Shown piece by piece: positions 27,609 to 51,299 of a stretch of 64,000 bases of DNA (positions are counted from its first letter, which is position 1; every line of letters starts with the position of its first letter). The translations under genes were made by a program, and so were the position numbers. The notes under the pieces are model-generated. The model was not told the origin of the DNA. It was given only the letters and a program-made list of their open reading frames with translations, and did no database searches. This DNA comes from Epichloe hybrida (lineage: Eukaryota > Ascomycota > Sordariomycetes > Hypocreales > Clavicipitaceae), in contig JAFEKR010000041.1 in assembly GCA_019022495.1 (NCBI GenBank), positions 248,001 to 312,000 on the forward strand. Reading direction: 5' to 3'.

Positions 27609-28067
27609 CTAGCTAGCAGAGCATTGTTTGTAGTGTAGTTAGTGTAGTTTTTGGGAAAAATTTGTATTTATAGTGTAGTTTTTTTTTTTTTGTAGTTAGT
27701 GTAGTTACTAACTACACTAACTACACTACACTACAAAAACTACAAATGTAGTGTTAGGTAAATAAAAAGTGGGTCTTTTTATATAGTAGTATTAATATAC
27801 TAATGAGAAGAAAGCTATTATTCGTATACTTATATTATTAGCTATTTTATTAAATTAGTTATTTAAGTTATAAGATTATAACCTTTTATAGATTTTATTA
27901 TAACTAGGGTTATAAGTACTATTATAAGTTTTTTATAAGACTATTATTCTTAATACTTTTCTTTACTAATATAACTTTAAGAAAACCCTTTTTATTATTT
28001 TATTTACTATTACTAAGAGTTATTTTCTATTATTATTATTATTATTATTATTTCTAATTGTAATAAT

Positions 28068-28375
28068 TGTTAGAACAAAGATGATATCAATCGCGCGTCG
28101 CTGCCGCAATTACCCGGCAGAAGCTTGGGCCGCGCGCGGACCCCACACGTGACCCACAACCCGGCACGTTAATTGGCTAGGAAATGTAGGGATATAAACG
28201 CGTAACCCCTTTTTCCCTTTATGTATTATAACTTCTAGCTTTTTACCTCTCTTTTCCTACAACTTAATTAATGATAATAACAGATAACGTAGCCTAGAAT
28301 AGATAATCAATGACGATACTATTCTTCGGGCTCACGACTGTATTACATTGAATTCAATACCCTGTGAATCTAACA
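28068..28375 (+). mobile_element. Solo LTR (copia-type) nested in hAT-like element 1
   Basis: This 308-bp sequence begins TGTTAGAACAAAG and ends GTGAATCTAACA, with the 5-bp target duplication ATAAT directly on both sides (28063-28067, 28376-28380). It is GC-rich inside (CGCGCGTCGCTGCCGC) and keeps CpG, unlike its surroundings. A diverged copy in the opposite orientation lies at 29835-30124. The intact duplication shows insertion followed by LTR-LTR recombination. Confidence 0.85.
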
Positions 28376-28740
28376 ATAATACCCTAAACTAATATAATAA
28401 AATTAATTAGTAACTTAGAAGAAATAACTAGAAGTTAATAAAGTATATACTTAGTACTTATATATTATAATTAATAGGATAAAAACTTAAAAAAAGCTTA
28501 AATAATTTATTTACTATTTAAACTAATCAAACATTACTTTTAGCTTTATAATTCTAAAGCTTTAAGAAGTTATATATACTAACTTTATATATCTCCTTAC
28601 TATAATATATAAAGAAAGTATAAAAGATAGTAATATTTATAAAGTATTTATATATAACTAATAGTATTAATTAAATTAGGCTATATAACTAAATTAAGTT
28701 ATTAAAAAAATTAAAACTTATTTTTAGTTATAATACTAGG

Positions 28741-29175
28741 ACTCACTTTTATTTTATATACTATAACTACTTTAATAACTATATTAACTTTAATAAGCTT
28801 TATTATAGCTAGTTAAACCTATTTTAAGATATAATAATAAGACCCACTTTTATTTTATATATTATAACTACTTTAATAACTATAATAACTCCAATAAGCT
28901 TTATTATAGTTAGTTAAACTTATTTTAAGATATAATACTAAGACCCACTTTTATTTTATATATTATAACTATTTTAATAACTATAATAACTCTAATAAGC
29001 TTTATTATAACTATAATAACCTATTTTAAGATATAATACTAAGACTTACTTTTATTTTATATACTATAATTACTTTAATAACTATATTAACTTTAATAAG
29101 CTTTATTATAGTTAGTTAACCCTATTTTAAGATATATTACTAGGACTTACTTTTATTTTATATACTATAATTACT
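28741..29175. repeat. 101-bp tandem repeats in hAT-like element 1
   Basis: Units start at 28741, 28842, 28943, 29044 and 29145 (last one partial), an exact 101-bp period. Each begins with ACCCACTTTTATTTTATA or a one- or two-base variant. The GACCCACTTTT core also recurs in the internal repeats of the other two hAT-like elements. Confidence 0.9.
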
Positions 29176-29400
29176 TTTATTATAATATTTAAAAATATAA
29201 AAAAGAAAGTTATTTTATTTTATTAATATTTTAAAAAACCTTAAAATACTAAATAATTAAAAAGTCTAGCTTTTCTTATAGTAATTTACTTATTTATACT
29301 TATACTTATATTTTATTAATTTATTACTTATTTATTTTTAATTAAACTTTAACACTAATAATATTTTAAGTTATATAAAGAATATAAGATATATATATAT

Positions 29401-29585
29401 AAGCTATTATAAGCTATTATAAGCTATTATAAGCTATTATAAGCTATTATAAGCTATTATAAGCTATTATAAGCTATTATATGCTATTATAAGCTATTAT
29501 AAGCTATTATAAGCTATTATAAGCTATTATAAGCTATTATAAGCTATTATAAGCTATTATAAGCTATTATAAGCTATTATAAGCT
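29401..29585. repeat. 10-bp minisatellite AAGCTATTAT, about 18 units
   Basis: About 18 near-perfect head-to-tail copies of AAGCTATTAT lie in the right half of hAT-like element 1. The same minisatellite occurs at the matching place in element 3 (50642-50815), preceded in both by a TTATATAAGNAATA-like leader and a TTAAAAAACCTT block. Confidence 0.95.
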
Positions 29586-30207
29586 AAGATAAATATTTTT
29601 ACTAATACTACAAATGTAGTATTTGTAGTTAGTGTAGTTTATGAAAATAAATTTGTAGTGTAGTGTAGTGTAGTTTTTTTCCCCTTGTAGTTAGTGTAGT
29701 TTGTAGTGTAGTAACTACACTACACTACAAAAACTACACTACAATACACATTGTAGTGCAATGCTCTGCTAGCTAGTAACCTATATGCACTAACTTTTGG
29801 TTTAAAAAATAACCTTATATAAAAAGAAAGCCTTTGTTAGTATCACAGGGTATTGAATTCAATGCAATAAGGTTATGAGCCCGAAGAATAGTATTATTAT
29901 TGATTATCTATTCTAGGCTATGTTATATGTTATGTAAAAAAGAGAACTTAAAAGCTAGGATTCGTAATAAAAGAAGAGAAAGGGGGCCGCGCGTTTATAG
30001 CCCTATATTTCCTAGCTAATTAATAGGCCTAGTTATAGGTTACGTATAAGGCCTGCGCGTAGCCTAAGCTTTTGCTAGGTAATTATAGCTATAATGCGTA
30101 ATTAATATTACCTTTGTTCTAACACTAGAACCTCTCTCTTTTAATATAATTATTAATGCGCGTATAAGGCGCTGTGTACGGGGCCCGATAGAGACTGAGG
30201 CCCTAGG

Positions 30208-31901
30208 CAGAGCATTACATTACATTACATTACATTGTGTAATGTTTGTAATGTAATGTAATTATTACACATTACATTACATTACACATTACATTACATT
30301 ACATTACACCCCCCTTTCACACATTATATTACATTATATGTAATTATTTGTAATTAAATGTAATTATTTATTATTTTTTAATATTTAGGTTAAGTAATTA
30401 GAAATTAATAGTAAGAAATAACTTAAATAATTAGAAAAGTATATATTAGGTTTCTAAAAATATAGATTAAGGTTAAATTACTATATAAATCTTAATTATA
30501 ACTTATAAAACTAATAAAACTTACTTTTTAAGCTTATTTCTTAGAAAAATATTAAAAACTTACTTTTAAGTATACTTTTTTAATAGAAAATCATATATAT
30601 TTAAGTAAATAAGCTATAAAGAAGTTAATACTATTATTAGTTAGACTCACTTTAGACCTAGTTTTAAGTATACTATCTTTTTAAGAGAAAATCATATATA
30701 TCTAAGCTAATAAGCTATAAAGAAGTTAATAGTATTATTAGTAAGACCCACTTTAGACCCACTTTTATATATACTTTCTTTTTAAGAGAAAATCATAAAT
30801 ATTTAAGCTAATAAGCTATAAAGAAGTTAATACTATTATAAGTAAGACCCACTTTTATATGTACTTGCTTTTTAAGAGAAAATCATAAATATTTAAGCTA
30901 ATAAGCTATAAAGAAGTTAATACTATTATTAGTAAGACCCACTTCAGACCCACTTTTATATATACTTTCTTTTTAAGAGAAAATCATATATATCTAAGTA
31001 AATAAGCTATTAAGAAGTTAGTACTATAATTAGTAAGACTTACTTTAGACTTACTTTTAAACTTACTCTAGAAAATACCTTTTATTTAAAATAAAATTAT
31101 ATATAACTAGGTAAATAAGCTATAAAAAAGTTAATTATATTATAAATAAACCTTATTATATACTTAATTTTTATTTATACTTTAAATAAACTATATTATT
31201 ATTTTATAGCTTTAAATTCTTATAAACCTATATTACTTATAAGCTTTTTTAATTCCTTTACTAAAAAGAAATAAACTTTTATTTTAAAAAGTATAATATT
31301 TATTTATTAACTTTATAAAATTAGATTTTAGATTTTATCTTAAATTAATTTACTTTTAATAATATAGGCTTTTTAAAGATTTCCTTATTAGTTCTTAATA
31401 TAATTATTTAGACTTATAATATATTATTTTATATTAAATTTTAAAGTATATATAGGGTATGATTTAGTAAAATAAATACTTAGGTTAAATAATATAATAT
31501 TAAATCTTAGAAATTAGATTTATTAGTATTTTAAAATCGTATAATATAAAACAAAATTCAAGGATTTCTATTATACTCTTAAACCTATATAGTATACCCT
31601 ACACCCTAATATATAACTAAGAATCTAAAACTAAGGAAACTTTAATAATTTATAGTAAATAAACTAAAATAGTTATTAAATTAACACTAATATTAACTTA
31701 ATAAAGAAAAATCCATATAATATTATAAGATCTTAATATACCCCACTTTTATTTTCCCCTAACATTACATTTGTAATGTTTGTAATGTAATGTAATGTAA
31801 TGTAATATGTAATAATTACACATTACATTACATTACATTACATTACACATTACATCCAAACCCCAAATATTACATTACATTACATTACATTACATGCTCT
31901 G
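30208..31901. mobile_element. Non-autonomous hAT-like element 2 (TGTAA arrays)
   Basis: This 1694-bp element starts CAGAGCAT and ends ATGCTCTG, flanked by the 8-bp target duplication GCCCTAGG at 30200-30207 and 31902-31909. Arrays of TGTAA (read as TTACA on the other strand) occupy both ends, about 30215-30312 and 31764-31895. The conserved inner motif TGTTAGGGGAAAATAAAAGTGGGG is at the right end on the minus strand (about 31741-31764), so this copy is inverted relative to elements 1 and 3. There is no transposase frame. Confidence 0.88.
30583..31075. repeat. About 95-bp internal tandem repeats of hAT-like element 2
   Basis: Roughly five units share AAGAGAAAATCATA, AATAAGCTATAAAGAAGTTA and AGTAAGACCCACTTTTATAT. 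The unit length varies by partial duplication of the GACCCACTTT core. It is equivalent in position and core motif to the repeats of elements 1 and 3, but otherwise different in sequence. Confidence 0.85.
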
Positions 31902-33114
31902 GCCCTAGGTGACAGGCCTTATAACCGATTGTAAGGTGCAATGTTAGCAACGGCTAGCATTGGCGGATCTTTTGGTCTATTGGGATTCCTAGCACACCTT
32001 CTAGGTCTCTTACAGCGCGATATTAATCGTAGAAATAAAAAAGAAAGGTAGATTAATAATTTAATTAATAAGGGATATAAGGAAAAGAACTTATAGCTTA
32101 TCTTAGCGTGTGGTAACTAATAAAAAGGAAATAATAATCTTACTTAGCCTATAAGCCTATATAAGAATAAGTAAATCCTTTCTAAATCCTTTCTTTTCCT
32201 TAAATTAATATATATCCCACGCTATAGCGCATATATAATATCTTCCCCTTTCTAATATAATACTTTCCTTCTCTTATATATTACTACTAATTTCTATAGT
32301 TTACTAGGAGAGCCTAGTAAGCTAGTATAGCTATAGTTACTAGGGATATTAACTATAAGGGTGTAAATCCCTTATATATTACTATCTTATCCCTATAGCT
32401 ACCCTCCTAGAGAATTACCTTTTCTCTTACTATATATATATTATATATAAGTAACCTATCCCTTTATCTAGATAGTTATTTAGTTAGTGAAGATAAAGCT
32501 TTTAAGAGCCTTATTAAGTAATACCTTTATAAAGGTATTAGCTAGGTTATCCTCCTTATTAATCTATTAAATCTTATAGAGTTCTTAGTGTTTATATAAT
32601 TATTAAAGAGCTATAATATTAATTATTAAGCGTTTCTCTTTTATTATACTAAGCTTAATAAGGCACTTATATAAGGAGTATAAATCTATATATATAATAA
32701 CTAGGATCTTTAGGAGCTTTAGTTATTTAGTAACTAGGTTTAGGGTTATTATAATTACGTAAGCTATATTAATACTAGCTACTATACTATAAACCTCTAA
32801 GGTAAGCATACTTTATATAACTTTTTTACTCTTTATTAAGCTAAAGTATATAATATTACCTTTAATAGTAAATTTGCTATTAGTGTAGTTCTTATTAGCT
32901 AGGATAAGTATATATCCTAGTTAGGAGGATAGGTCCTAGTTATTAGCAAATAATCTATTTATAAAGGTAAAGAGCTTTGCCTTCTTAAGGTTAATTAGAA
33001 TAAACATTAGGCCTCTTTCTAAGGAATTTATCTACTACTTTAGGTAGTAATTAAAGGCTTTTATATTCTCTAGGGTTAGGTCTTAGTATTATATAGTAAT
33101 AGATAAATTAAAGT

Positions 33115-33403
33115 TTATGCTGTGAGTAAAACTCGAATGGATTTGAGTTTGACTACGGTCGCGAATTATGACTGTATCTTGCGCAATCGCAGCCACAAAG
33201 TTTATCGCAAACTTTGTATTAACTTTTCAGCCCCCAAATTTGTGGCTTAAAGCTTATTCCTTAATGTTTTACCTAACACTACGGTGATTATTAAATTTAG
33301 TTGTTACATGTGGCACTAGCTAGGTATTGCTAGTAATTTTTTTGGTTCCTTGAAAATTAGATGCATTGGCCACAGCCAATGACCCCAAAAAAAATTAAAA
33401 ATC
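33115..33403. mobile_element. SINE-like insert with 17-bp target duplication
   Basis: A 289-bp insert is bounded by the 17-bp direct repeat AATAGATAAATTAAAGT (33098-33114 and 33404-33420). The uninterrupted site can be read in the right arm of the inverted repeat near 40815-40850, which confirms the insertion. The insert ends in an A-rich tail (CCCCAAAAAAAATTAAAAATC). It contains CpG/CpA-bearing sequence that is much less decayed than the flanks. A long duplication plus A-rich 3' end indicates target-primed retroposition. Pol III boxes are not clear, so SINE is the likeliest but not the only reading. Confidence 0.72.
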
Positions 33404-33891
33404 AATAGATAAATTAAAGTAAGCCTCTAGTTAGTATATTAAGGCCATGTAAGCGCCTTAGGCCCTTTGCTTAATATATTTATACTTTAAATTAATTATT
33501 AGAACTAATTCTAACTTATTACTTTATCCCTTTTACTATATCTTAATAGTATTATTCTCTAGCGTAATAATACCTTTATTAAACATAAGGGGATTATCCT
33601 AGGTTAGGAATTACTTTAGCTTTACATTAAAGCCTATAGTAACTAGTTAAGTCTTTTCCTTCTTAGAGAACTTCTTATCTAATAGGCTAAGAGTATTATT
33701 AGTTTATATTCTAATATATATAAACTAATGATACTCTTAGCCTATTAGATATAACTATAAAGGAAAGCCTTAACTTTATATATATTAGAATATAAACTAA
33801 TAATACTCTTAGCCTATTAGATAAGAAGTTCTTTAAGAAGGAAGAGACTTAACTAGTTACTATAGGCTTTAATATAAAGCTAAAGTAATTC

Positions 33892-36800
33892 TATTGATTC
33901 CTTCGGATCTTCATCAGTTCAATCGTGGCCAAAGACCGGACCAAATTGTAGGTCTAGCGCAATGCATGCAATGCGATTAGCTACATTAATTCGCCACCCC
34001 CTCTTTTACCTTATATACAGGTTTCGCTTACTTTCCTAGTATCTAGACTTTCCCTCTTTTTTTTCTCTTTCCTTCCTAGCTAATTTAATTAACTATTATT
34101 AACTTTAATTATATAGGATTACCCTTATACTTACATAGGACCTTAGTATAACTAACACTAATTAGTAGTTAACTTTATAACTATAGATAAGCTAGGTATT
34201 ATAAGAAAAGACATTTCTATAGACGCTACTACCACTACCCCTTATTATACTATAATAGTTATTATAATAGAGAGGCATAACTATATAAGTATACTAAAGG
34301 AAGAGACTAGAATCCTAGTTATAGGCTTGTTAGGCTTCTAAGGAATTAATTTATTAACCCTTAGGCTAAGGGATATAACTTTATTATATCTATCTAGGAT
34401 ATTATTATTAATTGTTAATTTCATTATCTATTATAAGAAAACTAACTAACTAACCGAATCTATCGCCGTGAGGTATTTATTTCGAACCTAATGTTAAATA
34501 AACCTTAGCTAAGCTAGCTAATATACCTATAAATTCCCTTTAACACATTACTTTCTAATAAACCTTTAATCTCTCCTTATAAGTATTTACTACTTATTTT
34601 TTACCCCCTTTACTCTTAGTACTATTTACCCTATGCTTATTAGTAAGAGAGAGAGATTACCTCCTTCCCTTCTTTTTATAAAAAATAGGAAGTAGTAATT
34701 TCTATTATTCCCTTATTACTTTTCCTATTATTTTCTAGTTACTTTTAGAACTTCTATTACTTTCTTTATCTCTATTAATTTATTCCTATTACTACTTTTA
34801 CTACTTTTTCTTTTATTTTTCCTGTTTTTATAATCTTCTAATTTTATTAGAGTAATAACGCTCCTAAAATACAAAAGAAAAACCTTATAATAGTAATAGG
34901 TAAATATAGGAGCTTAATTAGTAGTAAAAATAATAAATTAGTAATATTTCTTTTATAGTTAAAGATAGTAAAGGAATCTAGACTTTCTATAAGAGTAAAG
35001 GCTACTAGTAATAGTAAGGCTTTAACTATTACCCTTAAAAGACCCTAAGAGTATAAGTTACCCTTATATCTTTAATAGCTTACTTATAACTTCTCTAGTA
35101 ATTAGAAAGAATTTATTAAGCTAGATCTAGAGACTGCTATATAGCTTAAGCTTAATAACTAGATTATAAGATTTATTAACCTTAGTAAGCATTAAGGTTA
35201 GAGAGATAATAACCTATAGGAATTATTCTAAGAAGATTTTAAAGGCTAGTCTAAAGATACCTTTAAAAGGGCTATAAAGGAAGTTATTAGAGAATTATAT
35301 AATTCTCTATGAGATCATAGCGTTCTTATTAAGCAAGGCCTAGGATATTTAATCCTAGTATCCCTTAAAGAAGTGCTTTATTAAACTTTAATACCTCTTT
35401 AGTTATAGGAGAGATTATAAGAGAGACTATAATCTTCTAAACCCCTAGAGCCTTAATACTAATAGCCCTAATAACTTACCCTAGAAATCCACCTTCCCTA
35501 ACCCTAAAGACTACGTAAACCTTTATAAGAGCCCCTATAATAATTGCTATTAAATTAATAGCTTTATCCTAATAATTATTATTAATAATAACTAGGGGAC
35601 TATTATTTATAATATAATATGCCTTTATAGTAATTCGCCTCTGAAGATTAGATTATAAAGAAAATCTCAGAGCTTATAAAAATATATAAGGATAGTAACT
35701 ACTATAGTAGGAAGCTATATAACTTCTTAACGCTAAAGATTACGCTCTTTAAAAATAAGTATAATAGAATTAACCTTCCTTAAACATATTATTAGAAGGC
35801 TTTCCTTATTATATTAATAAGTAATACTAAATAATACTTCCTTAATTACCTCTTTAGAAATAACTATTCCTATAAAGAGATAATTACTTATATTTATTAA
35901 CACTTTAAGATAAAAAGTAACTAGTAATTCTATTACTACTAATAGAGTAGTATAATATTAAAAAATATAATTAAGAAAAACCCTAATAAAAGTAAGCTTA
36001 ATTACCTTAAGATTATATTATTAACCCTTAAGAAAATCCATAGAGAACTATACCTTACTAAAATAGTAAATACTAAGCTCTATAAGTAAGCCTTAAATAC
36101 TATAGCTAGTGTGCCTAAATATTAGATAGTGGAATATATATACTCCCTAGGCTTTAAAAGTCTTACTAGAGACCTCTATAAGGTAATTACTATTATAAAA
36201 TTAAATAAGAGGTTTTTCTAATACCTTTAGTACTAATAAGAAGACCCTCTAGAGGCTATATTTACTAATTATTAGTATAGATAGTAATTATCCCCCCGCA
36301 GCGGAGGAAGCTATTATAGATAGAGCCCTAGGCTAAGCACTAAGCACTACTTTATATATAGTAAGAGTAGTTACTAGTTCTCTAATTACTTTACTAAAGA
36401 ATATTAAAAGAAAAAGGACTAATAGTAAGCTAGTAAAATATATTATATACCCCCTTTAGAGAAAAGATTCTAGGTATTCCTTACCTCCTATAAAGGGTAG
36501 GATAATAATAAGCCTAATAAAGGCTTAGGTTAGAATTAGGAATTATATCTTTTAGCCTACATAGAAGCTAAAGATAATAATAATATAGAGGAGCTACTAT
36601 TAATAGTATACCTAAGCATTATATAATTCTTTTACTCTAGATTATAGACTAACTATAACGCTACTAAAATTAATATTCTTATGACCCTAAATAATCAAGC
36701 TTTCTAACACATATTCCTTAGGTAGGAGCTCTATAAGCCATAAGAGTGTAATAAAGGCTTAATTTACTATATCTCTAAAAAATACTATTTTAAAGAGGTC

Positions 36801-39800
36801 TTTAAAGAGATTATACCTAATACTAGTGCTATAGGAAAGTTAACTATAGGAGAGGCATAAGTAAAGGCTTTATTAAGATTAATGCCTTTATTAAAGGTAA
36901 CCCCCTATAAACCCTAAATTATTATATTTAGCGCTAGATTAGTAGTTATAAGAGAAATCCTTTATATGCCTATAGAACTTAGAGAGCTTAAATTCTATAT
37001 TCTTAATATAGCTACCCCCTTTCTCTTCTTAATTACTAATATAGATAAAATATAAGTTAAGATTAATAACCTTACTAATATACTTATCTAAGGTAATAAG
37101 ACTATACCTATTATGTAATAATAGGGCTATCCTTAGTAGTTACTAGAGGCAAGAGAAATAGTTACCTTCTACCTTTTAGAAGGAGATATCTATTAATTAG
37201 ATTATTAACTTAGTTACCTTTCTATTTAATAACTTATAAAGATCCTTTACTAAGCTAGTTATAAAGTTAAACGCTAGGCAATTAAGGAATTAACTAAAGT
37301 CTACTACTATTACTAGATATATAGAAAGGCCCCTAGTTAATTTAAGTTTATAATTAAAGATAACTATAAATTTAACTAGAAGATTATTATTAATATTATG
37401 TAGATTAATAGCTAACTAGTACTTTATATTATTAATTTAGTAATATTATTCTAGGTAGCCTAATTTCTTAATCTAAGGAAGTAAAAAGCTTAAGATATCT
37501 AGGATACTATCTGCGAATGTTAGATTAACACTTATCTTAGACCTCTAGAATGGATTATATATAATGCTAGTAATAACTTTACTTTTACTAAGTTTAAGTA
37601 CTATACTTAACTAATATTAATTAAGACGAATAAGATACTAATTAAAGCCTATAATAGTATTAGAAAGGTTAAGAGATATTATAGACCTCTACGCTAAGCT
37701 TATAATATTATTATAGACTTAATTAGGATAGAACTTACGCTAGAGTAATGCCTTTAAATAGCTATTAAAGTAATTAATAACTCTATAGGCCTAAATAGTA
37801 TTATCCTAACCCTACTAGTCTTTAGAGGCTACCTATAAATAATAAATAAGTTACTACTAAGTATCTTTATTATTTAATATACTAAAGTAATTTATAAAGC
37901 TACTAATAAAGTCTACTACTATCTAGCTTTATAGTAGGTCTATAATACCCTTAAAGTCTAGAATAGCCCTAATATAGTACCATATATTAGCTACCCCTAT
38001 AGGCTAATATATATATATAAAGAGAGAAGGGTAACTAGTATAGCCCTTATAAGCTACTTACTACTAATAGAGAGACCTATATAGTTAATATGCCTTATAG
38101 CCTAGCGAAGTTCCGCTCTATAGTAATAAAGCCTTATTATAAAGACTTATATATTATAGAGGGACTAGAGTAGTAAGAGATAGAGCCTAATAATATAAAG
38201 GAAGAAGTAACTATATAACTAACTACTACTACTAGAAGAGATTCCCTAATAAAAGAAAGTAAAGAGCTATAGGCACTAGCTAAGAGAAAATAAGGGAGAC
38301 TAAGAAAGGCCCTTATAGTCTAATTTATAAGCGTAAAAGAGTCTAAAAAAAAGTCTTATAAAGCCTAGAAGGCCCTAAAGGGAAGCTATTAAGTTAAAGA
38401 CTTACTACCTTACCCTAAAGGAATAAAAGTAAGGAAAAGAAAACCTTATAGCCCTAAGAAAAATATTAGCCTAATTTAGCTTTATATACTTATAAATAAA
38501 GATTAGGAGGAGGCCTTTATTTAAGAAGCTATAGCTAGAGGGATGCTAAATATAGTATTCCTTATAGTAAAGGAAAAGGCTAATTAAAACCTTACTCTTT
38601 AACTCCGCTAAGAAAGGAAGATTATAACCCTAGGAAAACCCTTTAAGTAATCTAATTAAGCTAAGATTAACGCTTTATAAGCTTATAATATATTTAAATT
38701 TATTAAGTATAACTTAGCGAAGCATAGAGGTTATAGAATCTTTAATTCTTATATAGTTAGAGAGATTAAAGGTAAAGGAATAGACTTACTATATAAGAAA
38801 TCCTACCTTATTATATAAGGCTATAATAACAAAGGAAAGGAATTTATCCTAATGTAATTACTAACGATTTAACGAGCAAGCTAATAACTTATTATAGCTA
38901 TTGCTTTATTATTAAGAAAAAGAGGTATTTACCTTTGGATTTACGATATTACATAAGCCTATACTTAATCGCACATAGTGCTAACAAGGCTAATTATTAT
39001 AAGATTACCGAAGTAAATTACATATCTCTTTCTAGAAGGGACTATAATTAAATTAATTAAACCTCTTTATGGGATTACAGAGGCTAGAACCTACTAGTAG
39101 GTAACGTACTTCCGTTACTATAAGGATAACCTTAATATAATAACCTTAACCTATAATCCCTGCTTGTTAATTATAGCCCTAAATAATAAGAATCTCTTTA
39201 GTATTATTAGAATGCAAACCAATGATATATTAGGCCTAAGTAATAATAACTTCTTTTAAAAAGAAAAGAAAGAGCTCTAGAAGGCTAATTTTATAGCTAA
39301 AGAAAAGTAATAATTAACCGCTAAGAATCCCCTTATCTTTAATAGTTATATCTTAACCTAGAACACTAATAACTTGCTAATATTAACCTAGAAAGGCTAG
39401 AGTTAGAAGATTAAGGAAGTTAATCCTTAATCCCTAATAGTAAAGCAAGACTATATAGAATAATAAGCCTAAGGAAGCTATATTATAACTATATATTAAC
39501 TAGAAGCTTCCTATAACCTATTAATTATAGCTTAATACTAAGAACCCTTAGGGGAAGATATTATATACCTTAATAAACACCTTAAGTAGTAGATTAAGAA
39601 TTAATAACGTAAACTATAATACATTCCTTTAGTTCTTAAGGAGGCGAAGCTCTTTATGTTTATAGATAGATTGCTTGCTAATAACAAGGATCTAAGCTTA
39701 TAGATTAAATATGTGATTATGATTAGCAATAAGATAATATAAGATAATAATACCTTTATTATAAAAGGTAATATTATTATGTATAGCTTAATAAAGAGCA

Positions 39801-40632
39801 AGAGAGTTACTTATAGCGCGCTTACCTCCGAGTTATATAGTATGGTTTAAGGCGTAGATATTGCTTACGTGATTTCCATAACTTTACATTAGATTATAGA
39901 TTAATTAAAGATACCTTAAATTCCTATGATTCTCTATACTAATTCTTTTTTATTATATAAATATCTTATAAAGCTAGGAACTATAAAGGAGAAGAGACTA
40001 ATAATTAATATTATAGCTCTTTATTAATTATATAAGAGGCATAAGATCTACGAAGTTAGGTGGATTAATGGTAATAATAATCCGGCGAATATAATAACAA
40101 AAGCATTACTAAATTTATTACTTTCCTCTTTAATTAATTCAAATGAATTAATAATTTGTGTTAAAGGATAGGTAAAGAGACCTATGATATTAGGAGACGG
40201 GAGCTTAGGCAAGGACTAATAGATTAATTCAATTAACTAATGCCGTAATAGCTAATTAAAGCAGCGGATTCCTATTAAGGAATTTACTTATGTATACTTT
40301 CCTTTAATTTGCTTTTTATTGCGTTTTTAAGCTCTTTAGCTATAAAGGAAAAAGAGAGACTACTAGTGTTAATTCCTTTAGATCTTCATTAGTTTAATTA
40401 TAGCTAAAGACTAGACTAAATTATAGGTCTAGCGCGATGCATGTAATGCGATTAGCTATATTAATTTGCTACCCCCTCTTTTGCCCTATATACGGGTTTT
40501 GCCTACTTTCCTAGTATCTAGACTTTCCCTCTCTTTTTCCTCTTTCCTTCCTAGCTAATTCAATTAACTATCATCGACTTCAATCATACGGGATTACCCT
40601 TATACCTGCGCAGGACCTTGGTGTAACCAACA
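33892..40632 (+). mobile_element. Full-length Ty1/copia retrotransposon, RIP-inactivated
   Basis: The LTRs are 33892-34157 and 40367-40632 (266 bp each), with the 5-bp target duplication AATTC at 33887-33891 and 40633-40637. The 3' LTR begins TGTTAATTCC and ends ACCAACA, and is preceded by the polypurine tract AAGGAAAAAGAGAGAC. In the interior the plus strand shows decayed copia reverse transcriptase sequence (MQTNDILGLSNNNF near 39210), RNase H (KLFMFIDRLLANNKDL near 39650) and the C-terminal EVRWINGNNNPANIITKA (near 40060). Upstream parts, 34.2-38.6 kb, are presumably gag and integrase but too eroded to align by eye. Stops are frequent and no frame is intact. Confidence 0.88.
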
Positions 40633-41870
40633 AATTCCTAACCTAGGATAATCCCCTTATGTTTAATAAAGGCATTATTACGCTAGAGAATAATACTATT
40701 AAGATATAGTAAAAGAGATAAAGTAATAAGTTACAATTAGTTTTAATAATTAATTTAAAGCGTAAATATATTAAGTAAAGGGCCTAAGGCGCTTATATTA
40801 CCTTAATATACTAACTAGAGGCTTACTTTCATTTATTTATTACTATATAGCACTAAGAGCTAACCCTAGAGGATATAAAAGCCCTTAATTACTACCTAAA
40901 GTAGTAGATAGATTACCTAGAAAGAGGCCTAATATTTATCCTAATTAACCTTAAGAAAGTAAAGCTCTTTACCTTTATAGATAGATTATTTACTAATAAC
41001 TAGGACCTATTCTCCTAACTAGGATATATACTTATCCTAGCTAATAAGGACTACACTAATAGTAAGTTTACTATTAAAGGTAATATTATACACTTTAGCT
41101 TAATAAAGAGTAAAAGAGTTATATAAAGTATGCTTACCTTAGAGGTTTATAGTATAGTAGCTAGTGTTAATATAGCTTATATAATTATAATAACCTTAAA
41201 CCTAGTTACTAAATAACTAAAGCTCCTAAAGATCCTAGTTATTATATATATAGATTTATACTTCTTATATAAGTGCCTTATTAAGCTTAGTATAATAAAA
41301 GAGAAACACCTAATAATTAATATTATAGCTTTTTAATAATTATATAAATGCTAAGAACTTTATAAGATCTAATAGATTAATAAGGAGAATAACCTAGCTA
41401 ATACCTTTATAAAGGTATTACTTAATAAGGCCATTAAAAGCTTTATCTTAACTAACTAGATAACTATTTAGATAGAGGGATAGGTTACCTATATATAATA
41501 TATATATAGTAAGAGGAAAGGTAATTCTCTAGGAGAGTAGCTATAGGGATAAGATAGTAATATATAAGGGATTTATACTCTTATAGTTAATATCCCTAGT
41601 AGCTATAGCTATACTAGCTTACTAGGCCCTCCTAGTAAACTATAGAAATTAGTAATAGTATGTAGGAGAAGGAAGGTGTTATATTAGAAAGGGGAAGACA
41701 TTATGTACATGCTATAGCGTGGGATATATATTATTTTAAGGAAAGAAAGGATTTAGAAGGGATTTACTTATCCTTATATAGGCTTATAGGCTAAGCAAGA
41801 TTATTATTTCCCTTTTATTAGCTACTATATACTAAGATAGGCTATAAGTTCTTTTCCTTATATCCCCTAT

Positions 41871-42480
41871 TGTTGGTATCTACAGGATACCATTAACCTA
41901 CGCGTAAGGTTTTCAGGGTAAACTAAAGTACACGTAATTATTATATATTCTAGTCTATCTTAGTAAGCAAAAGAGGGATTAAATAGAAGTAAAGAGAGTG
42001 TGCTATTTATTATAGGAAAAGGGGCCTTAATTAGGGTTACTAGCGAAGAGGCCACATATGCTAATACTAACCACGGCGCGGTTAGGGCAGATATGTAGGT
42101 TCGCAATACAACGCGCCTAGCTAATCAGAGGCGCGTAGCCTTATTAATATTATACTTATTCTAACACTAGAAACTCTCTCTTTTTAATATAACTATTAAC
42201 GTATAATATTAATAAGATAATTAAAAAAGAATTAATAAATAAGTAGGATTAAATAATTATAGATAATATTATAAGAAAAGAGTAGGGGAAAGGGGCGTAA
42301 TAAAAGATAATATTTAATCTATAAGCCTATATAAGGATAAGTCAGCCTAATCTTAATACCTTTATATATTTATATATTATTTACGCTAGTTAGCTTTATA
42401 GATAGCTATCACTAGTACTCCTACTACTAAGTCAAAAGGGAAAACCCTATACTAGGAAGAAAAACCCCCTTATGTCTATT
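41871..42480 (-). mobile_element. Diverged copia LTR with adjoining polypurine tract and 3' sequence
   Basis: The sequence 41871-42166 (TGTTGGTATC...TTCTAACA) has the same ends as the LTR at 29835-30124. It is followed at 42167-42200 by the same CTAGAAACTCTCTCTTTTTAA stretch, which is a polypurine tract on the minus strand. Up to about 42400 it resembles the region at 32030-32170 (CTATAAGCCTATATAAG). It is therefore the 3' end of another minus-strand copy. The plus-strand arm ending at 41868 abuts it directly. Confidence 0.6.
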
Positions 42481-42499
42481 TACAGGCTGGCGCCAGCCC

Positions 42500-45400
42500 T
42501 GTGATAGGTCTGCGCTGCTTAGTATGTTTCCTGTTGTAAGTGTTTATTACTAGCTTATACTAGCCTTATCCTATTAAAAAGAAAAGAAAGGAAAAATATA
42601 TAGAATAAGTGTTTATAAGCCCCTTCTAGTCCTATTCTAGTGTAATAACATGCTTATCCTAAGTCTCTTTACTTTAGGCTAGGGTAAAGTAAATCTAGAT
42701 TTATAGTATTAATTCACTTCTTATTTACTCTTATGCTAACTCTTCTATAGCCTTACTTTTTAGCTATCTCTAGCTTGCCTTTACCTTATATGTCTAGTAA
42801 AGTCTAAGCACCTAGTTTTATTTAATTAGTATAGGGGGAGGGTAGTTATAGCCCTAGACTAGGTTAGTCCTAGGTTAAGATTACTTATGTGTTATTAGAT
42901 TTATTAATCGCGTTATGCTTTATTTTTAAGCAAGTTATTTAAATTAGCCCCCCCCCCTTTATAAGTATAAAAAAGAGCTCTCCCCCCCTTAGGTCCTAGT
43001 CTCTTTCTTCTCTTTATATTAAACTTCCTATAGGTTTTTCTTTTCTTTCTAGCTATTTAAGGCTATCCTAAGCTAGGGTTAGGTTATTTACTAACGTTTA
43101 CTATAAATTTAAACTAAATCTAGTATAATAGCGCTAAATACTATAAGTACTTTAGTGTTACTACTTATCTAGCTTTAATTTACCTAGGAATCCTATAAGT
43201 ATAAGAACTTCCTAAGGAAGTCTATAACTAAGAAGTAATACATATAGGTTATAAAGAAGGGTCTATCTATAAGTTATATTTACCTTTACTCTAGCCCTAG
43301 TCCATTACTAATTTGCTTTAGCTTAGTAAACTAAGAGAAGTCTAATATATTTCCTATAAATTTTATTTAGTTTAGGACCTTAAGTATTAGTGCTATCTTA
43401 TTATTAGTAAGTTAGTCCTGCTCTAGCTTAGTAATAGGGCTAAGTTGCTAAATAGGGGCGGCTACTAACGCGTGTTTTAACTATTAGGTTTAGAACTATT
43501 AATACCACTAGGTAATAATTGCCCTTACTCTAGCTTAGTTCTATGTCTAATCTACTATTTAGCTAAATTTATCTAGTAATTAAAATAAGCACTAGTAGTT
43601 AGTTAAGACCTAGGCTTCTATAGCTAATAGGGGTAAGGTAAGTCTACTCTAGCTTAGTAGTAGGTCTATTCTAGCTCTAATATCTTCCTTAATAAACCCT
43701 AGAAAGCTTCTAGGACTAGGTTAAGAAGCTTTATGCTAGTAATTAGGTAAAGAAAAAATAAAGCGCCTTAGTAGTAAGCCTAGACTAGGCTAGTTTCTCT
43801 AAGGAATAATATACTAAGCTTATCTTTTAGCTTACACGCCTTAATGTGTATATAGCGAAGATAAACTATCTCTTACTTACTATTATACTTACAAAAAGTT
43901 ATAACTAGGTAGCTATAGGTGTAATTCCTATCCTAGAGAAAGAATAAGGTAGTAGCTTAATTTTAATTTAGAGTAAGGGTAGTAATAGGCTAGTAGGACT
44001 TATAATACCTAGAGTTTATAGTTAAAATTAATCTAATAATAGTTCTAGACCTAAGTGTTCTTTATTATAATTATAAGTTATAAAATTAGTCCCTTCCCTA
44101 GCTTACCTCTATAACTATACTATCTATTCTATCCCTTATACTAGATTTATAATTAGGAGGTTTTCTATTTATTAATAGAGTTAGCCTAGGTCTAGTAGTA
44201 TTCTAAGCTATCTTATAGCTAGCTCTTATACTAATAAGTAATATTAGAGTTATCTTATGCTAAGGAACTATTGAGCTAAATGTTTTGCTCTTTAGGGTTT
44301 ATTTAGGGCTAGCCTTGCCTCCTATATGTTAGCAGGCTATTACTACTAAGGTCGCCTGTAGTTATACTTGCTATAATTAACTAGTATATAGTATTAGTCT
44401 TTTATAGCTTAACTATAGCTATATAAAGGTAAAATCACCCTAGGAACTTTTCTTTAGAATAGAAACTTATTTAAGCCTATCTTTCCTATATATAGTTAAA
44501 TAATTATTAAAGAGATATGCTTATCTATATTAGTATAGAATTCCTAGATTTCCTTTAGGTTATAAAAGGGTGGTTAGTCTTTAGTTAGTTCTTTAATATA
44601 TTTACTCTAGGCTAGCCTCTCCTTATTATACTAGTCCTCCTAATATTTCTTCTATTCCTTATCTAGGTCTATATCTAGCTTATTATTAATAGGTAGGGGT
44701 CTTCTCCTATAGTATAGTACTATTCTAACTAAGTTAGCTATAGCTTAGATTATCCTTACTATCCTACTATTAATAATTCTATTTTTAAACCCTTGCTTTA
44801 TTTTACTTAGGTAAAGGTTAAGGGGGGGGACACAGGTCTTAACCTCTAGTTATACAATAGGTGTAGCCTTAAACGCCCTTATAATAATCTAGAGGTAAGC
44901 TAATTAATTTACTATAAAGCTTTTTACTACTTCTCTTAGTTTTCCTCCCTTCTTAGTAAGGGTATAGTAAGCGCTTACTCTATAGGTAAGGATAGGCTAG
45001 ACTACTTATATATATAGGAGTCTAGTATCTCTAAAGCTATATCCCTAGGCTAATACTACTAGCTTAGAGAGTATAAGCTACTACTAGGCTAACTTACCCC
45101 TAAGGATATTTCTATAAGCACTCTAGTTAAGTTTTCTATTAACCTATACTCCTAGAAATCTATATAATTCTATAAGCACTATTTCCTTTACTTTAAGTTA
45201 GACTCTAGCCTAGGGAGGTCTATAGGACTTACTAAAGTATATAAGTTTAGTTTTAGCTAGGTTAAACTTAACTTTTACTTACTTTATCTATTTCTTATAG
45301 ATTTTTTATATAGCTTTAAGTCTCCTTTAGGTCTATACTATATTCTTACTAAAGGCTACTATATTTATATTATTTACAAATCCTATAGCTACTATACCTA

Positions 45401-46700
45401 GAATAGCCTAGAGGTAAATATAAAGCTTTACTAAGTAAAGTAAGAAGAGAATTAGGAAGAGGGGTAAACCTTATAAGGTGCTAGCCTTAATTATAAATAG
45501 TCTAGAAAGTCCTTTATTAAAGCTAAGCTAGCTTATTCTATTTATAAGGAAGCTTTATATTACTACTATTAGCTATTATAGGACTCCTATCTTTATAAAT
45601 AAGTGTATTAGGTATAGGTAGCTAACTCTATTAAATACTAAAGATATATTTATTTATACTAGTAAGGTAATACTACCCCTTCCTTAGGCCTCCCTAACGT
45701 ATTTAATAAGGACTCTTATTATAGTTTCTATTAATTTATTTATCCTATTACCTATTTAGAGTTTAGGGAGTAGCCCCTTTACCTTAGTAAAGGCTATAAG
45801 TTACTTTACTATTACTACTTCTATAATCTTTCCTACTATATTAAGTAGTAAGATTAGTCTTTATATATTAGCTCTCCTTATTTCCTTAGTGGTTTTACTA
45901 GGTTTCCTAATTATTACTACCCTTATAGTTTAGAAGCAAGCTAGGAAGTATCCTATTTCTAGGACTATATTTAGGAGCCTAGCTATAGTATCTTTAGCTA
46001 GGTTATTATAGGCTTTAATAAGGCCTACTAGGAGTTTATTATCTCCTAGCGCCTTCTAGCTAGCTATATTTACTAGGATATTATTAATCTTCTCTTACCT
46101 AAATTATTCTTTATTTAGTAATAGTGTGTTTTCTAGCTCTAGGAAGGAGAGGTCTAGTATATATAAGAGGTCCGCTATTAGCTTAGGGAAAAATCTTTAT
46201 GCTAGTACGCTAGCCTTATTATTATATATAGTGGCTAGGTTAGGGTTGTTTTTGCTTTTTTCTAGCTTAGGGAGTCTAGGGAGCTCTAGGAGGGCCTAGC
46301 TTTAAAGCTAGGCCTATCTCTTAAGCCTTTAGACCCCTTTATCTTTTTCCTATATATTAGCCTTTTATAATACCTCCCTCTATATATTTCTTTTCTCTTC
46401 CCTTATAATATATTCTTAGTCCTTATTTGCCTTAGTATAGGCTTACTAGTTTGCGTTAGTCCTCTAGTATCTCTATTATCTCTTAGCTTACTTTACTTTA
46501 CTAATCACTCTTAGGCTTTCCTTAACTACTATACCTCTAGGCTAGGGAGTCCTGAGGCCTTCTTTAGGACTACCTTATTTGTAATCTATTATAGGCTTAT
46601 AATAAGCTATATTATATAGTTATCTATTCCCTCTTTATTACATAGGTCTAGCGCGTTTTTAGGCTAGAGTTTAATCGTAGCCTTTGCCTTTACATGTAGT
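42500..46700 (-). mobile_element. LINE-like (Tad1-type) retrotransposon remnant
   Basis: On the minus strand the region 46120-45180 reads as a decayed non-LTR reverse transcriptase. KALGDNKLLVGLIKAYNN (near 46050) corresponds to the usual KAPGPDGI...LK segment, and GFVNNINIVAFSKN (near 45370) to the GFADDTNLLA active site, with the Asp pair turned to Asn by G-to-A change. It continues with VKVKFNLAKTKLIYFS (near 45240). Further on, PANI-EARLALNKP (near 44300) fits the linker before the C-terminal region. Outer limits are uncertain. A GC-rich palindrome GGCTGGCGCCAGCC at about 42493-42506 marks the low-coordinate side. Confidence 0.7.
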
Positions 46701-47720
46701 TAGTTTATAGCTCCCTATATATATTGTGTGCCTTAAGATACGCGCCTAAAAACGCGATTACGATGATAAGTGCTAAGGCTCAAGGATGGGGATATTATAA
46801 CAAGGGGATGACAATATTAGTCATCTTAGCAAGAGGATTAATTAATCTATAAAGGGACCATATATAGCTAGATTTTACGAGAGCTACTACGCACCACTAA
46901 ATTCTTACTTTTGCCCTACCCTTTTACTTTAGCTAATATTAATAGCTTTGGCTAATATTAACTCTTGCTTTGGCTAATATTAGATCTAATATTGTGAAAT
47001 ATGTATTAAGAAGAACCCCCCCTCCCTTCTCTAATTCAAACGCCGCTTCTAATCTAACAGACTATTTAATCTAGGATATCTCTATATAATAAGATAGTCC
47101 TAGCTGTTATTGTGATTAATATTTTGTCGGGGCAAAACAACCACCCCAAAACAACGGAAAAGAGGGATCTGACGATAATGATGATGCCGATGAAGATGAC
47201 GAAATTGACGAAATTGACGGTATTGACGAATTCAACGATATCAGAAATTGAACCTAGATATCGGGATCTAGGTCTGCGATATTTGCGATCCATCGCGAGG
47301 ATCGAAGCTAGGAAAAGCTGCCTAGCTAGGCAGCTAGATAATCTCAAATAATCTCAAATAATCTCAAATAAGCTCATATTCATCTTAGGAAAACACAGGT
47401 AAAATCTCGATTTGAACAATCCAAGCCAAAGGCAACAAAGGGAGAGTTGATTTTCTATGAAAAGGGAGGGAATCTAGGGCTTTTATCTAGCTAGGGGGTC
47501 AGGGGCTAGGCCGGATCCAATGTGGTTGAATTGATCCGACAATCCGATAGATCCGAGGTCGAAGGGGCTAGAGGTCTCGAGGGATCCGATAGATCCGAGG
47601 TCCAAGGGGCTAGAGGTCTCGAGGGATCCGATAGATCCGAGGTCCAAGGGGCTAGAGGTCTTGTGAGAGAGGTCTCTAGGGGTCATATTCCTAGCCACAC
47701 AATATTATTAAGTTGATCAA
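46700..47720. other. Less decayed island with acidic reading frame and 42-bp repeats
   Basis: CpG and CpA are retained here. A plus-strand stretch at about 47125-47250 reads between stops as an acidic peptide tail (SDDNDDADEDDEIDEIDGID), ending at a TGA. I do not recognise the protein, and it may be the end of a dead transposon gene. A TAATCTCAAA decamer is repeated at about 47338-47368. A 42-bp tandem repeat follows at 47541-47661. No other feature could be named. Confidence 0.45.
47541..47661. repeat. 42-bp tandem repeat, three units
   Basis: Units start at 47541, 47583 and 47625, the last truncated after 37 bp. The core is ATCCGATAGATCCGAGGTC followed by AAGGGGCTAGAGGTCT. Copies are nearly identical and CpG-containing, so they are younger than, or were spared by, the mutation process around them. 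Confidence 0.92.
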
Positions 47721-48819
47721 CCCCTCTATTATGTGTAGGCTCTAGAGCTACTCGCGATTATAGGCTAGCATTATGTCTTTTAGGGTGTTATTTTCTACTT
47801 AATAAAACTAGTGGAGAAATATAGTCTTAAACCCCTAGGACTTCCGCTTTCTGTTTAATTTGCTACGGACTAAGATTAATTAAAAGCATGCTTTTTTAGC
47901 TATAACCTATAGCTAATACTAAACCGTTTATGCAAAGACCCCCTTATTTTATTATTTCCTATAACGTAATATAGACTAGAAGCCTAGCCCTAGACTATAT
48001 AAGGGCTAAGGCGCTAGCTTTAGACTAGTTAATCTAGAAAAGCTAAGCTAGATTAAGGATAGGAGACTACGTTCTATAGAGGCGTTGAAAGGGAGGCTAG
48101 CTAGCTTAGGAAAGTATATTATAAATACTAGCCGAACCGTTACCCCCTTGCTAAGAACCTTTAAATATAAAAATACAGAATAGGAACCACTGTCTAGTGT
48201 TATAAACCATTTAATCTTAGGACCTATAGCTAATTTCGTAATAATTTAGCTATGCATTAGGGTCTTATAGTTAACCATAAAGAGCTATGTAATTACACTC
48301 CTAATTTTCGCTTATAAACTATTTATAACTACAAATATTACCCCCCTAAAAGATTTCTTTTAAAAGATTCTTTTAATTACTAAAGTTTTTATTTAAGCAC
48401 TTATCTATTTATAAGATTAATTATAAGTACTATCACTAGACTCTATATCTAATTGTTTATTTTCATATTCCCGCTAGCTAAGCAAAGTAAGGTTAATTAA
48501 GTAGCTAAGCTATCTAAGGGATACTTAGGATTTATTAATACTAGAACCCCTAGTTACTAGCAAGGAACTATCTAATCTTAAAATAGTTTCTATGCTAACT
48601 TATTCCTACTCTAATAATTAATTAGGGAAGGACCCTAATAATAAAGGAAAATCTTTAGGACCTCTTAATAGGCTTAATGCTAAATCTTTCATAAAAATCC
48701 TTAGAGAAATAATAGCTTGCTAAACTTCCTTTATTATAATATTGTGAGAATAGAGGGATAGCTAGGCAAGAGGTATGGGGGCGTTCGTATATTAACTAAA
48801 GCTTGCTAGGTCTAAGTGT
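47721..48819. other. AT-rich stretch without recognised features
   Basis: Decayed sequence up to the target duplication of hAT-like element 3. I see no reading frame, LTR or repeat that I can support. Confidence 0.5.
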
Positions 48820-49964
48820 GTTATACGCAGAGCATTGTTGTATTGTATTGTATTGTATTTTTTGGCCCTTCGATGTATTGTATTGTATTGTATTGCCCTA
48901 TGTATTGTATTGTGTATTGTATTGTATTAAAAATACAATACAATACATACAATACAATGTATTGTTAGGGAAAAATATAAGTGGGGTATTATATAAATTC
49001 ATTATATAGTAGATTTTTGAAATAATCTAATTATAGTATTCTTATTTTTATATATAATTTAGTTATTTACTTAAAAATCTATTAAGTTTTAGCTTATTTA
49101 GAAAAGTAAGCTTATTTTAAATATATAATATCTTAGTAATATTCTTTTATATCTATTTTAAAAAATGATTTTTTCTTAATATATTAAGGGTCTTTTTATT
49201 CTTATATCTATTTTCTATGATTTATTATAATTATTTATTATATAAAAATACATTATAATACAATACAATACAATACATTACAATACATTACAATACAATA
49301 CAATGTATTATTAAAAAGGTAAGGTAGTATATATACTTATTATATAGTAGATTTTTAATATAATCTAAATAAGATATCCTTAAATTTTATACTATTTAGG
49401 TATTTAGTTATAGAATTATAAAGTTTTAGCTAATTTAGACTATTAGGCTATATATATATATAGGGTAGCTATAAATAGTATTATCTAAACTTAACTTATA
49501 GTATAATTTATTCTTTATATTTTAAAGGTTATCCTATCTTTCTAGCTTTTGTTTAGGATTTACTATGCATTTTAATATAGTATTTTTGCTTTAAATATAA
49601 TATTTACCCTAAAGAAATAATTTATAATTCTAAATAAATAAGATTAAAACTCTAATAAAAATATACTTATATATATAAGGAATTTATTATAAAGAGAAAA
49701 TTAAAATTTATTTAATAAATGCTTCTTTTACTATTAAGCTATTTTATTATAATTATAATAAATTATATTAGCTTTGAACCTTTTTTAAACTAAAAGAAAA
49801 GGAAAAAACCTAGGAAAAGCTTATAAAGAAAAGTTAAAATATTATATAAAGAATAATCATAATATATATACTATTTTTTTAATATTAAGTAAATAAATAA
49901 ATAAGCTTTAAAAGTAAGTTTAATTATTTATACTACTTTTAGCTTACTTACTTAGTTATATAGT

Positions 49965-50390
49965 GTTTCTTAAAGTAGGTCTAAAAGTGGGTCTTGTTAA
50001 ACACTAAAAACCAAGTATAATCCCTTTTTATAGTTATATAACTTTAGCTAAGAAGAGGAGGATATATAAAAGTAGGTCTAACAGTGGGTCTTGTTAAACA
50101 CTAAAAACCAAGTATAATCCCTTTCTATAGTTATATAACTTTAGCTAAGAAGAGGAGGATATATAAAAGTGGATCTAAAAGTGGGTCCTATTAGTTATAC
50201 TATAAACCTAGTATTATCTCTTTACTTAGTTATATAATTCTAGCTAAAAAGAAATATATATACAAAAGTGGGTCTAAAAGTGGGTCCTATTAGTTATACT
50301 ATAAACATAATAATCTCTTTACTTAGTTATGTAATTTTAGTTAAAAAGAGAGAAATATACTAAAGTAAGTCTTATAGTTATATTAGGACT
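49965..50390. repeat. About 105-bp internal tandem repeats of hAT-like element 3
   Basis: Four units share AAAAGTGGGTC, TATAGTTATATAACTTTAGCTA and an A-rich tail. The first two and the last two form closer pairs. The AAAGTGGGTC core is the reverse complement of the GACCCACTTT core of the repeats in elements 1 and 2. Confidence 0.85.
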
Positions 50391-50641
50391 TACTTTCTAT
50401 TAGTATAAAATTATAAATAGTATAATATTAAAAACATAAAAAAGAAAGGAATTTTATTTTATTAATATTTTAAAAAACCTTTAAATACTAAATAATTAAT
50501 AAGTCTAGCTTTTTCTATAGTAATTTACTTATAAATACTTATATTTATATTATATTAATTTATTACTTATTTATTTTTAATTAAACTTTAACACCAATAA
50601 TATTTTAAGTTATATAAGTAATAGAAGTAATATATATATAT

Positions 50642-50815
50642 AAGCTATTATAAGCTATTATAAGCTATTATAAGCTATTATAAGCTATTATAAGCTATTA
50701 TAAGCTATTATAAGCTATTATAAGCTATTATAAGCTATTATAAGCTATTATAAGCTATTATATTAGCTATTATAAGCTATTATAAGCTATTATAAGCTAT
50801 TATAAGCTATTATAT
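50642..50815. repeat. 10-bp minisatellite AAGCTATTAT in hAT-like element 3
   Basis: About 17-18 units, with one TATTAGCTAT interruption near 50761. Same unit and position as in element 1 (29401-29585). Confidence 0.95.
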
Positions 50816-51299
50816 TAACTATATATACCTTATAATTAAGGAATTTACTTAAAACTAAAAAAAAAGAAAAAAAATACAAAACAATACAAATAATACATGT
50901 ATTGTATTGTATTGTAAAATTTTGGATGTATTGTATTGTGTAATGTATTGTGTTGTATTGTATTGTCAATACAATACAATACAATACACAATACATCAAA
51001 TGTATTGTATTGTATTGCAATGCTCTGGTTATACGTGCGAGTTGCTAACTTATAGCTAGTGACTTACTAGTATTACGTGGACCTAGCCCTAGGGCATAGT
51101 ATGCCTACCTAGTAATATACTAGCACACTAGTGTTATAAGTAAGGCCTTATAATTACCTCCTTACTTTTAGCTAGGCTCCTAAATAGCTTTTAGTAGGTA
51201 CTATATAGCTATTCGCTAAGTAGTAGCTATACTAAAATAATAATAAATAATATTAGTATTTAAGTATAAATTTACTTATAACTCCCTTTTATATTACTA

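Follow-up and report, generated by a model that had tools for sequence, protein, structure and literature searches.

Subterminal TGTAN arrays of hAT elements in Epichloe hybrida: sister lineages with a different fifth base on a largely kept layout

Results

A stretch of 64,000 nucleotides from Epichloe hybrida (assembly GCA_019022495.1, contig JAFEKR010000041.1, positions 248,001 to 312,000; hereafter the window, in whose own numbering positions are given) contains three hAT elements, E1 (27617..29768, + strand), E2 (30208..31901, - strand) and E3 (48828..51027, + strand), both ends of which are filled with arrays of a pentamer, TGTAN, in which the fifth base differs from element to element. 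A first-pass annotation, made from the sequence alone, had placed three elements at these positions with perfect 8-bp target-site duplications, and a recheck of the sequence agrees: CTAGCTAG flanks E1 (27609..27616 and 29769..29776), GCCCTAGG flanks E2 (30200..30207 and 31902..31909) and GTTATACG flanks E3 (48820..48827 and 51028..51035). The exact inverted termini measure 10, 8 and 10 bp respectively. E1, delimited by its ends and duplication, belongs to the TGTAG class and has the terminus CAGAGCATTG; E2 belongs to the TGTAA class, its strand being taken from comparison with a full-length TGTAA element; E3 belongs to the TGTAT class and is a relative, reduced in length, of a TGTAT element of 5.8 kb.

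When units of either orientation are counted in the terminal 300 bases at each end, TGTAG makes up 30 of the 32 TGTAN units of E1, TGTAA all 40 of E2 and TGTAT 38 of the 40 of E3. The assignment of one pentamer to each element therefore stands, although the arrays, described earlier as homogeneous, are nearly rather than wholly pure, the two remaining units being TGTAT in E1 and TGTAA in E3. By eye, the arrays extend over 27629..27751 (left) and 29608..29757 (right) in E1, 30215..30363 (transposase-right end) and 31763..31894 (transposase-left end) in E2, and 48839..48963 (left) and 50873..51015 (right) in E3, with units in both orientations. All four pentamers occur in the window as a whole (TGTAA 130, TGTAT 109, TGTAG 86, TGTAC 68).

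Six full-length candidates from the genome were tried, of which four were resolved completely: two TGTAG elements of 4993 and 5446 bp, with the perfect 8-bp duplications GAGATATA and TATATAAT, a TGTAA element of 5073 bp (TATATAAA) and a TGTAT element of 5763 bp (GCTACAGT), the last two duplications also being perfect. These four (5.0-5.8 kb) bear arrays of their own class at both ends, and in them the autonomous partner with TGTAN ends envisaged by the first-pass annotation has its counterpart. The left terminus was not found for a second TGTAA type (C113) or for a hexamer type (C46), where the left end was either not seen or lay outside the stretch examined; both have arrays and a transposase. 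An 8-bp duplication is present in three of three window elements and four of six full-length elements. Terminal inverted repeats of hAT elements are short and start with CAG(A/G)G, a definition which the termini CAGAGCATTG, CAGAGCAT and CAGAGCTTT fit; the loci L040, L048 and L049 end in ATGCTCT with a different last base.

The last exon of the transposase gene matches the hAT C-terminal dimerisation domain PF05699 at 71.1 bits (cut-off 21.4), and its sequence relatives in the PDB are hAT transposase chains, the Hermes chains matching with an E value of 2.3e-10 over query residues 517-584. The gene has about ten exons in our own reading of one copy, with one junction that misfits. Earlier exons gave no Pfam match above cut-off, candidate DDE residues were recognised by eye in IQLDIWTS, FTRDNGSN and SAIES, and a search for homologous proteins returned two matches at 21-23% identity. 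E3 matches the full-length TGTAT element at 88.6% over 554 bases on the right and 81.7% over 753 bases on the left, and has the same fifth base as T_C102 at 30 of 30 aligned sites; E2 matches the full-length TGTAA element A_C92 on the reverse strand, at the two termini, at 88% over 173 bases and 96% over 67 bases. By sequence, E1, E2 and E3 are non-autonomous members of a large hAT group which has full-length partners.

Comparison of the arrays was based on seven elements, the ends of which were aligned with the fifth base masked for 11 of the 21 possible pairs. Between classes (14 end comparisons) the elements agree in the fifth base at two of 154 aligned sites and disagree at the other 152; within a class (8 end comparisons) they agree at 85 of 88. 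Core identity is partly built in, as units are defined by TGTA, but that of the spacers is not, and because 305 of 435 aligned spacer bases (about 70%) are identical between classes the layouts can be regarded as homologous, with the order, orientation and spacing of sites largely kept. In A_C92 (TGTAA) and G_C84 (TGTAG), for example, the plan from the right terminus runs through three reverse units, a gap of 3 bases, one forward unit, a gap of 4 bases, three forward units, a gap of 3-4 bases, further reverse units, a spacer of 14-15 bases and, innermost, three reverse units followed by three forward ones, 5 bases apart. Over the 20 units of the same orientation in this pair, the fifth base is the same in none, whilst the cores agree at 79 of 80 bases and the spacers at 33 of 43.

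Each element has roughly 24-40 sites, and over the seven elements 222 of 234 sites have the class base after TGTA. For isolated sites the figure is 53 of 58, with a mixture of bases on the other side of TGTA, and since the letter is thus tied to the 3' side the unit is taken to be TGTAN. Slippage had been offered earlier as one way in which the arrays could have become uniform; as isolated sites, inverted sites and sites at opposite ends all share the class base, and the layout is kept, slippage cannot by itself account for the uniformity. Arrays and interiors also differ in CpA/TpG, a contrast that was not used, the ratio in an array following from the word itself (0.5 for TGTAG, 1 for TGTAA and TGTAT).

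The relationship between array and transposase was analysed in 40 hAT loci (20 best and 20 further) of the 127 PF05699 profile matches in the genome. An own array could be scored in 28, the class being assigned by inspection; L055, L074, L075 and L084 were left unscored, and L054, L078, L079, L081, L082, L085, L089 and L090 had no array in the stretch examined. Every transposase clade among the 28 has one array class, TGTAG occurring in two clades, which bears out the earlier proposal of pentamer subfamilies. The C-terminal region yields a tree with separate clades for TGTAG loci that have CAGAGCTTTG ends, for TGTAA loci, for TGTAT loci (two of them scored) and for hexamer loci (four of them scored), L086 standing as a distant TGTAG lineage; L077 was absent from a first tree and included in a second. 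Mapped on the tree, the array classes require three changes for four states, the minimum (four changes for five states when L086 is counted apart), compared with at least nine in 300 label shuffles. A test for a single clade, which came out against it, was discarded, two unscored rows within that clade having been omitted.

The hexamer loci (L057, L058, L073 and L087) represent a further hAT lineage whose arrays are, by eye, a mixture of TGTAAT and TGTAGT, with the terminus CAGAGGATTG in three of the four; this lineage possibly has an intermediate or relaxed specificity. Five loci considered as conflicts between transposase and array were rejected as such. The TGTAG arrays at L074 and L084 look like those of separate nested elements (terminus AGAGTATTG), the TGTAA end at L055 (C24) is nested, L076 has an array of its own and, next to it, an E1-type end that is nested, and L075 has no real array.

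The group is widespread in the genome (79.9 Mb, 156 contigs), whose trp gene shares 94% identity with that of Epichloe festucae and 85-87% with those of the Claviceps species compared, as befits a clavicipitaceous host close to Epichloe. There are 507 matches, some overlapping, to CAGAGCAT followed by three TGTAN units within 25 bases, 465 to right ends of the form CAGAGNNTTGNANTACANTACA and 344 to E1-like right ends, a 24-base end type (CAGAGNATTGCACTANAANGTGTA), compared with none for each reversed-pattern control; the arrays are neither a local accident nor an assembly error, the latter having been raised as a possibility by the first-pass annotation. Among the first 100 of the 465 right ends, both units read TGTAG in 55, TGTAT in 31 and TGTAA in 11, whilst three are mixed and none reads TGTAC. 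A left end faces 32 of these at 0.6-8 kb, and the classes of left and right agree in 30 (19 T/T, 7 G/G and 4 A/A), the left ends having been drawn from two pattern listings and some of them serving for two pairs. One exception is a mixed right end; in the other, a T with a G, a TGTAT end lies opposite this left end as well, at 3975 bases, and the mismatch is probably due to a TGTAG end lying inside a longer TGTAT element. The left-end type of TGTAG elements is followed by TGTAG in 77 of 77 cases.

A TGTAC subfamily, predicted to occur elsewhere in the genome, did not materialise. For the right-end type, the terminus followed by TGTAC has no match in the genome and one in the reversed control, and plain TGTAC arrays are no more frequent than in the reversed control (8 versus 17); the left ends checked were those of the type of TGTAG elements. 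Seven of the eight plain-array loci are without CAGAGCAT and ATGCTCTG. In L066 the two occur once each at a distance of 1.2 kb, but the locus was rejected as a TGTAC element, as it has no duplication (TCGGTGCC versus GCCGAGCC) and no arrays, the TGTAC run lying outside.

A candidate N-terminal finger was sought in exon 1, which was found in 22 of the 26 copies searched. The best-kept copies hold Cys-x4-Cys and RFQASNxVxHYxxKH, in which visual comparison pairs Q, S, N, the residue three positions beyond N, and H with Q64, S66, N67, R70 and H71 of the Hermes transposase. In the part of the Hermes study used here, the first four of these, together with main-chain groups, are the source of the base contacts made by the BED finger, beside the zinc ligand H71 (PMC10368747). 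S and N are constant in all 22 copies, and Q is constant except for a stop in three. At the place of R70, TGTAG copies have S (four), G (one) or R (one), TGTAA copies have Q (two), a stop (two) or Y (three), six identical TGTAT copies have S, and all three hexamer-clade copies, one of them without an array found, have a stop. The two residues after HY are KA, RI, KL and KF in the four classes, with a stop replacing R in one TGTAA copy. These variable residues are to be seen as candidates and not as a code. The exon-1 copies of six TGTAT loci (L110, L111, L112, L115, L116 and L067) are identical and share two in-frame stops; another copy probably mobilised them in trans, unless the exon is wrongly read there.

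The kinship of E1 deserves separate treatment. The three elements had been said to share CAGAGCAT termini, and the ends are indeed present, but in the case of E1 common descent cannot safely be read from CAGAGCAT, because its end type mostly reads CAGAGTATTG elsewhere. The E1 terminus CAGAGCATTG is a minority form of this type: among about 100 places listed of the 344 wider matches, five read CAGAGCATTG and the rest CAGAGTATTG. On this comparison of termini, E1 could have CAGAGCAT without being closely related to E2 and E3. There are 24 exact CAGAGCATTGCACTACAATG right ends in the genome, the nearest of which lies 9.4 kb from any PF05699 match. The locus of L086, the distant transposase, likewise terminates in a form similar to CAGAGTATTG, and it may be guessed that L086-like transposases mobilise E1; the left end of a full-length L086 element was looked for in L118 and not seen. 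The tail of E1 matches E3 at 92% over 438 bases, which prompted the idea that E1 is a TGTAT/TGTAG chimera; this is doubted, as its right end fits the commoner type with 344 matches, but the kinship drawn from that right end rests on 24 bases and the tail match stays unexplained. At L076, an E1-type element end was seen inside the TGTAG array of another hAT element.

As for other features, a minisatellite with the 10-base unit TATAAGCTAT lies just inside the right array of E1 (29391..29590, by eye) and recurs in E3 (50640..50815, by eye and from the E1/E3 match). It is also present in full-length elements, and was noticed at this position in several lineages (E1, E3, L039, L044, L046 and L053). 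A 308-base TG...CA sequence, with ATAAT on both sides, is nested in E1 at 28068-28375 and looks like a solo long terminal repeat; E1 itself thus measures about 1.84 kb. A sequence of similar look lies in the opposite orientation at 29835-30124, and default blastn between the two gave no match. From positions 1-24000 to 24000-64000 of the window GC drops from 0.53 to about 0.30 and TpA/ApT climbs from 0.54 to 1.55-1.79, the second part reading as a block like those left by repeat-induced point mutation (RIP), adjoining a gene-rich block.

Discussion

The explanation we consider best, and which is somewhat more probable than all its competitors taken together, is that a zinc finger of the transposase reads TGTAN, and that a shift in its specificity was followed by selection for mobility, which recoded the sites. 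The arrays would be candidate TGTAN sites for the element's own transposase, and binding by that enzyme is likely. In the N-terminal finger, the constant residues would hold the TGTA core and the variable ones would read the fifth base. Once the finger specificity of a lineage had changed, selection for mobilisation would recode the sites at both ends whilst keeping their order, orientation and spacing, and we infer that the new letter spread over the ends in this way. Small elements such as E1-E3 would then follow whichever transposase matches their word. It could further be that the genome holds mutually private hAT lineages, each clade with its own fifth letter, in which a change in place at some 24-40 sites per element would keep the lineages reproductively apart and allot the non-autonomous elements among them; this extension is offered tentatively, its chances being somewhat less than even.

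A number of observations weigh against recoding by selection and should temper it. Despite the masking of the fifth base, TGTA cores favour the alignment of unit with unit. The arrays are not free of exceptions, as three of the first 100 right ends are mixed, A_C92 has three non-class units among 29, and the hexamer lineage mixes TGTAAT with TGTAGT. The finger provides no clean code, with S at the place of R70 shared by TGTAG and TGTAT copies and a stop there in two TGTAA and three hexamer-clade copies. Its second Cys and first His are replaced by Tyr in six of six TGTAT copies, and identical replacements occur in single copies from other classes; Tyr at these putative zinc-ligand positions looks like decay, yet it weakens the reading of the region as a zinc finger. 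The Pfam search gave no BED match for the finger, and its predicted structure, with a mean pLDDT of 48.6, is unusable.

That each transposase clade has its own array class is no proof of co-evolution, as shared descent alone would give the same agreement. Each subfamily might simply derive from one founder whose arrays happened to be uniform, drift doing the rest and the fifth base not being under selection. The coincidence of class and clade is just what such a history would produce; it leaves unexplained, however, a near-total change at about 24-40 sites per element on spacers that remain some 70% identical, and we consider it improbable. Somewhat better placed, though still unlikely, is homogenisation, by which one mutated pentamer was spread through the arrays by slippage, unequal exchange or gene conversion, the fifth base being without function. 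Tandem growth certainly occurs in these elements, as 17-base units repeated in several copies (by eye) and an end with 44 TGTAG units testify, and this also counts against recoding by selection; units of five bases would nevertheless be too short for ordinary gene conversion. The motif arrays of VANDAL elements are reported, in the part of that study used here, to change via tandem repeat formation (PMC5735166). What homogenisation does not readily accommodate is that isolated sites bear the class base in 53 of 58 cases, that inverted sites and opposite ends up to 5 kb apart agree, and that layout and spacers are largely conserved between classes.

The partner of the arrays may, on the other hand, be not the transposase but a DNA-binding protein of the host, or an RNA-binding factor, that serves expression, replication or escape from silencing. 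The cores are dense, and as UGUA is a known RNA motif a role in the transcript might be imagined. For anti-silencing arrays there is a precedent in the VANC proteins (PMC5735166, as far as its portion used here goes). A single host factor would not, however, predict a separate fifth base for each transposase clade, and the presence of both orientations at both ends speaks against a role in RNA; of the alternatives this is the one we find hardest to credit. A VANDAL/VANC-like system was likewise rejected, as the transposase encoded in the full-length elements is of the hAT type and their target-site duplications measure 8 bp, although no search for VANC relatives was made.

These sister lineages, with much the same layout, a different fifth letter and a transposase clade each in one genome, amount to a natural experiment on the possible joint evolution of an enzyme and the DNA sites that it recognises, and bear on the old question of how change in a DNA-binding protein is matched at its dozens of sites. 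Exchanging a few residues of the finger, together with letters of the arrays, could serve to map specificity, and mutually independent transposon vectors differing by one base per site are a possible outcome.

Among known systems, maize Ac is likewise a hAT element with short subterminal repeats, AAACGG, which its transposase binds; to our knowledge Ac has a single motif, unlike the several motif classes described here. The portions of the published accounts used here allow three further comparisons. Hermes is a hAT element rich in short subterminal repeats, which lie in either orientation at each end and include a quasi-palindromic pair, and its finger has Q, S and N before the zinc histidine, a likeness matched here by eye; its repeats are scattered, 17 and 14 in number, whereas in Epichloe hybrida they form dense arrays and sister lineages have a different letter throughout (PMC10368747). 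Kat1 of Kluyveromyces lactis is a fungal hAT transposase with a repeated subterminal motif, AATTCA/TGAATT, found six times over the two ends; it differs in the motif, in the few copies and in being a domesticated gene, and in what was seen of the account motif subfamilies are not described (PMC4763223). Outside the hAT superfamily, a parallel is found in the VANDAL elements of Arabidopsis, which have motif arrays in non-coding transposon DNA, with C-type and T-type motifs that differ in the last base, a related protein that has other motifs, and a proposed co-evolution of motif and protein; there, however, the protein is an anti-silencing one and the arrays, which change by tandem repeat formation, are in one orientation (PMC5735166). 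In the open-access literature, which was the literature searched and was seen in part, no description was found of a hAT group with the TGTAN array layout. Subterminal repeats in hAT elements and co-evolving arrays in VANDAL elements are thus already known, whilst the recoding of a whole set of sites within a hAT group looks to be new.

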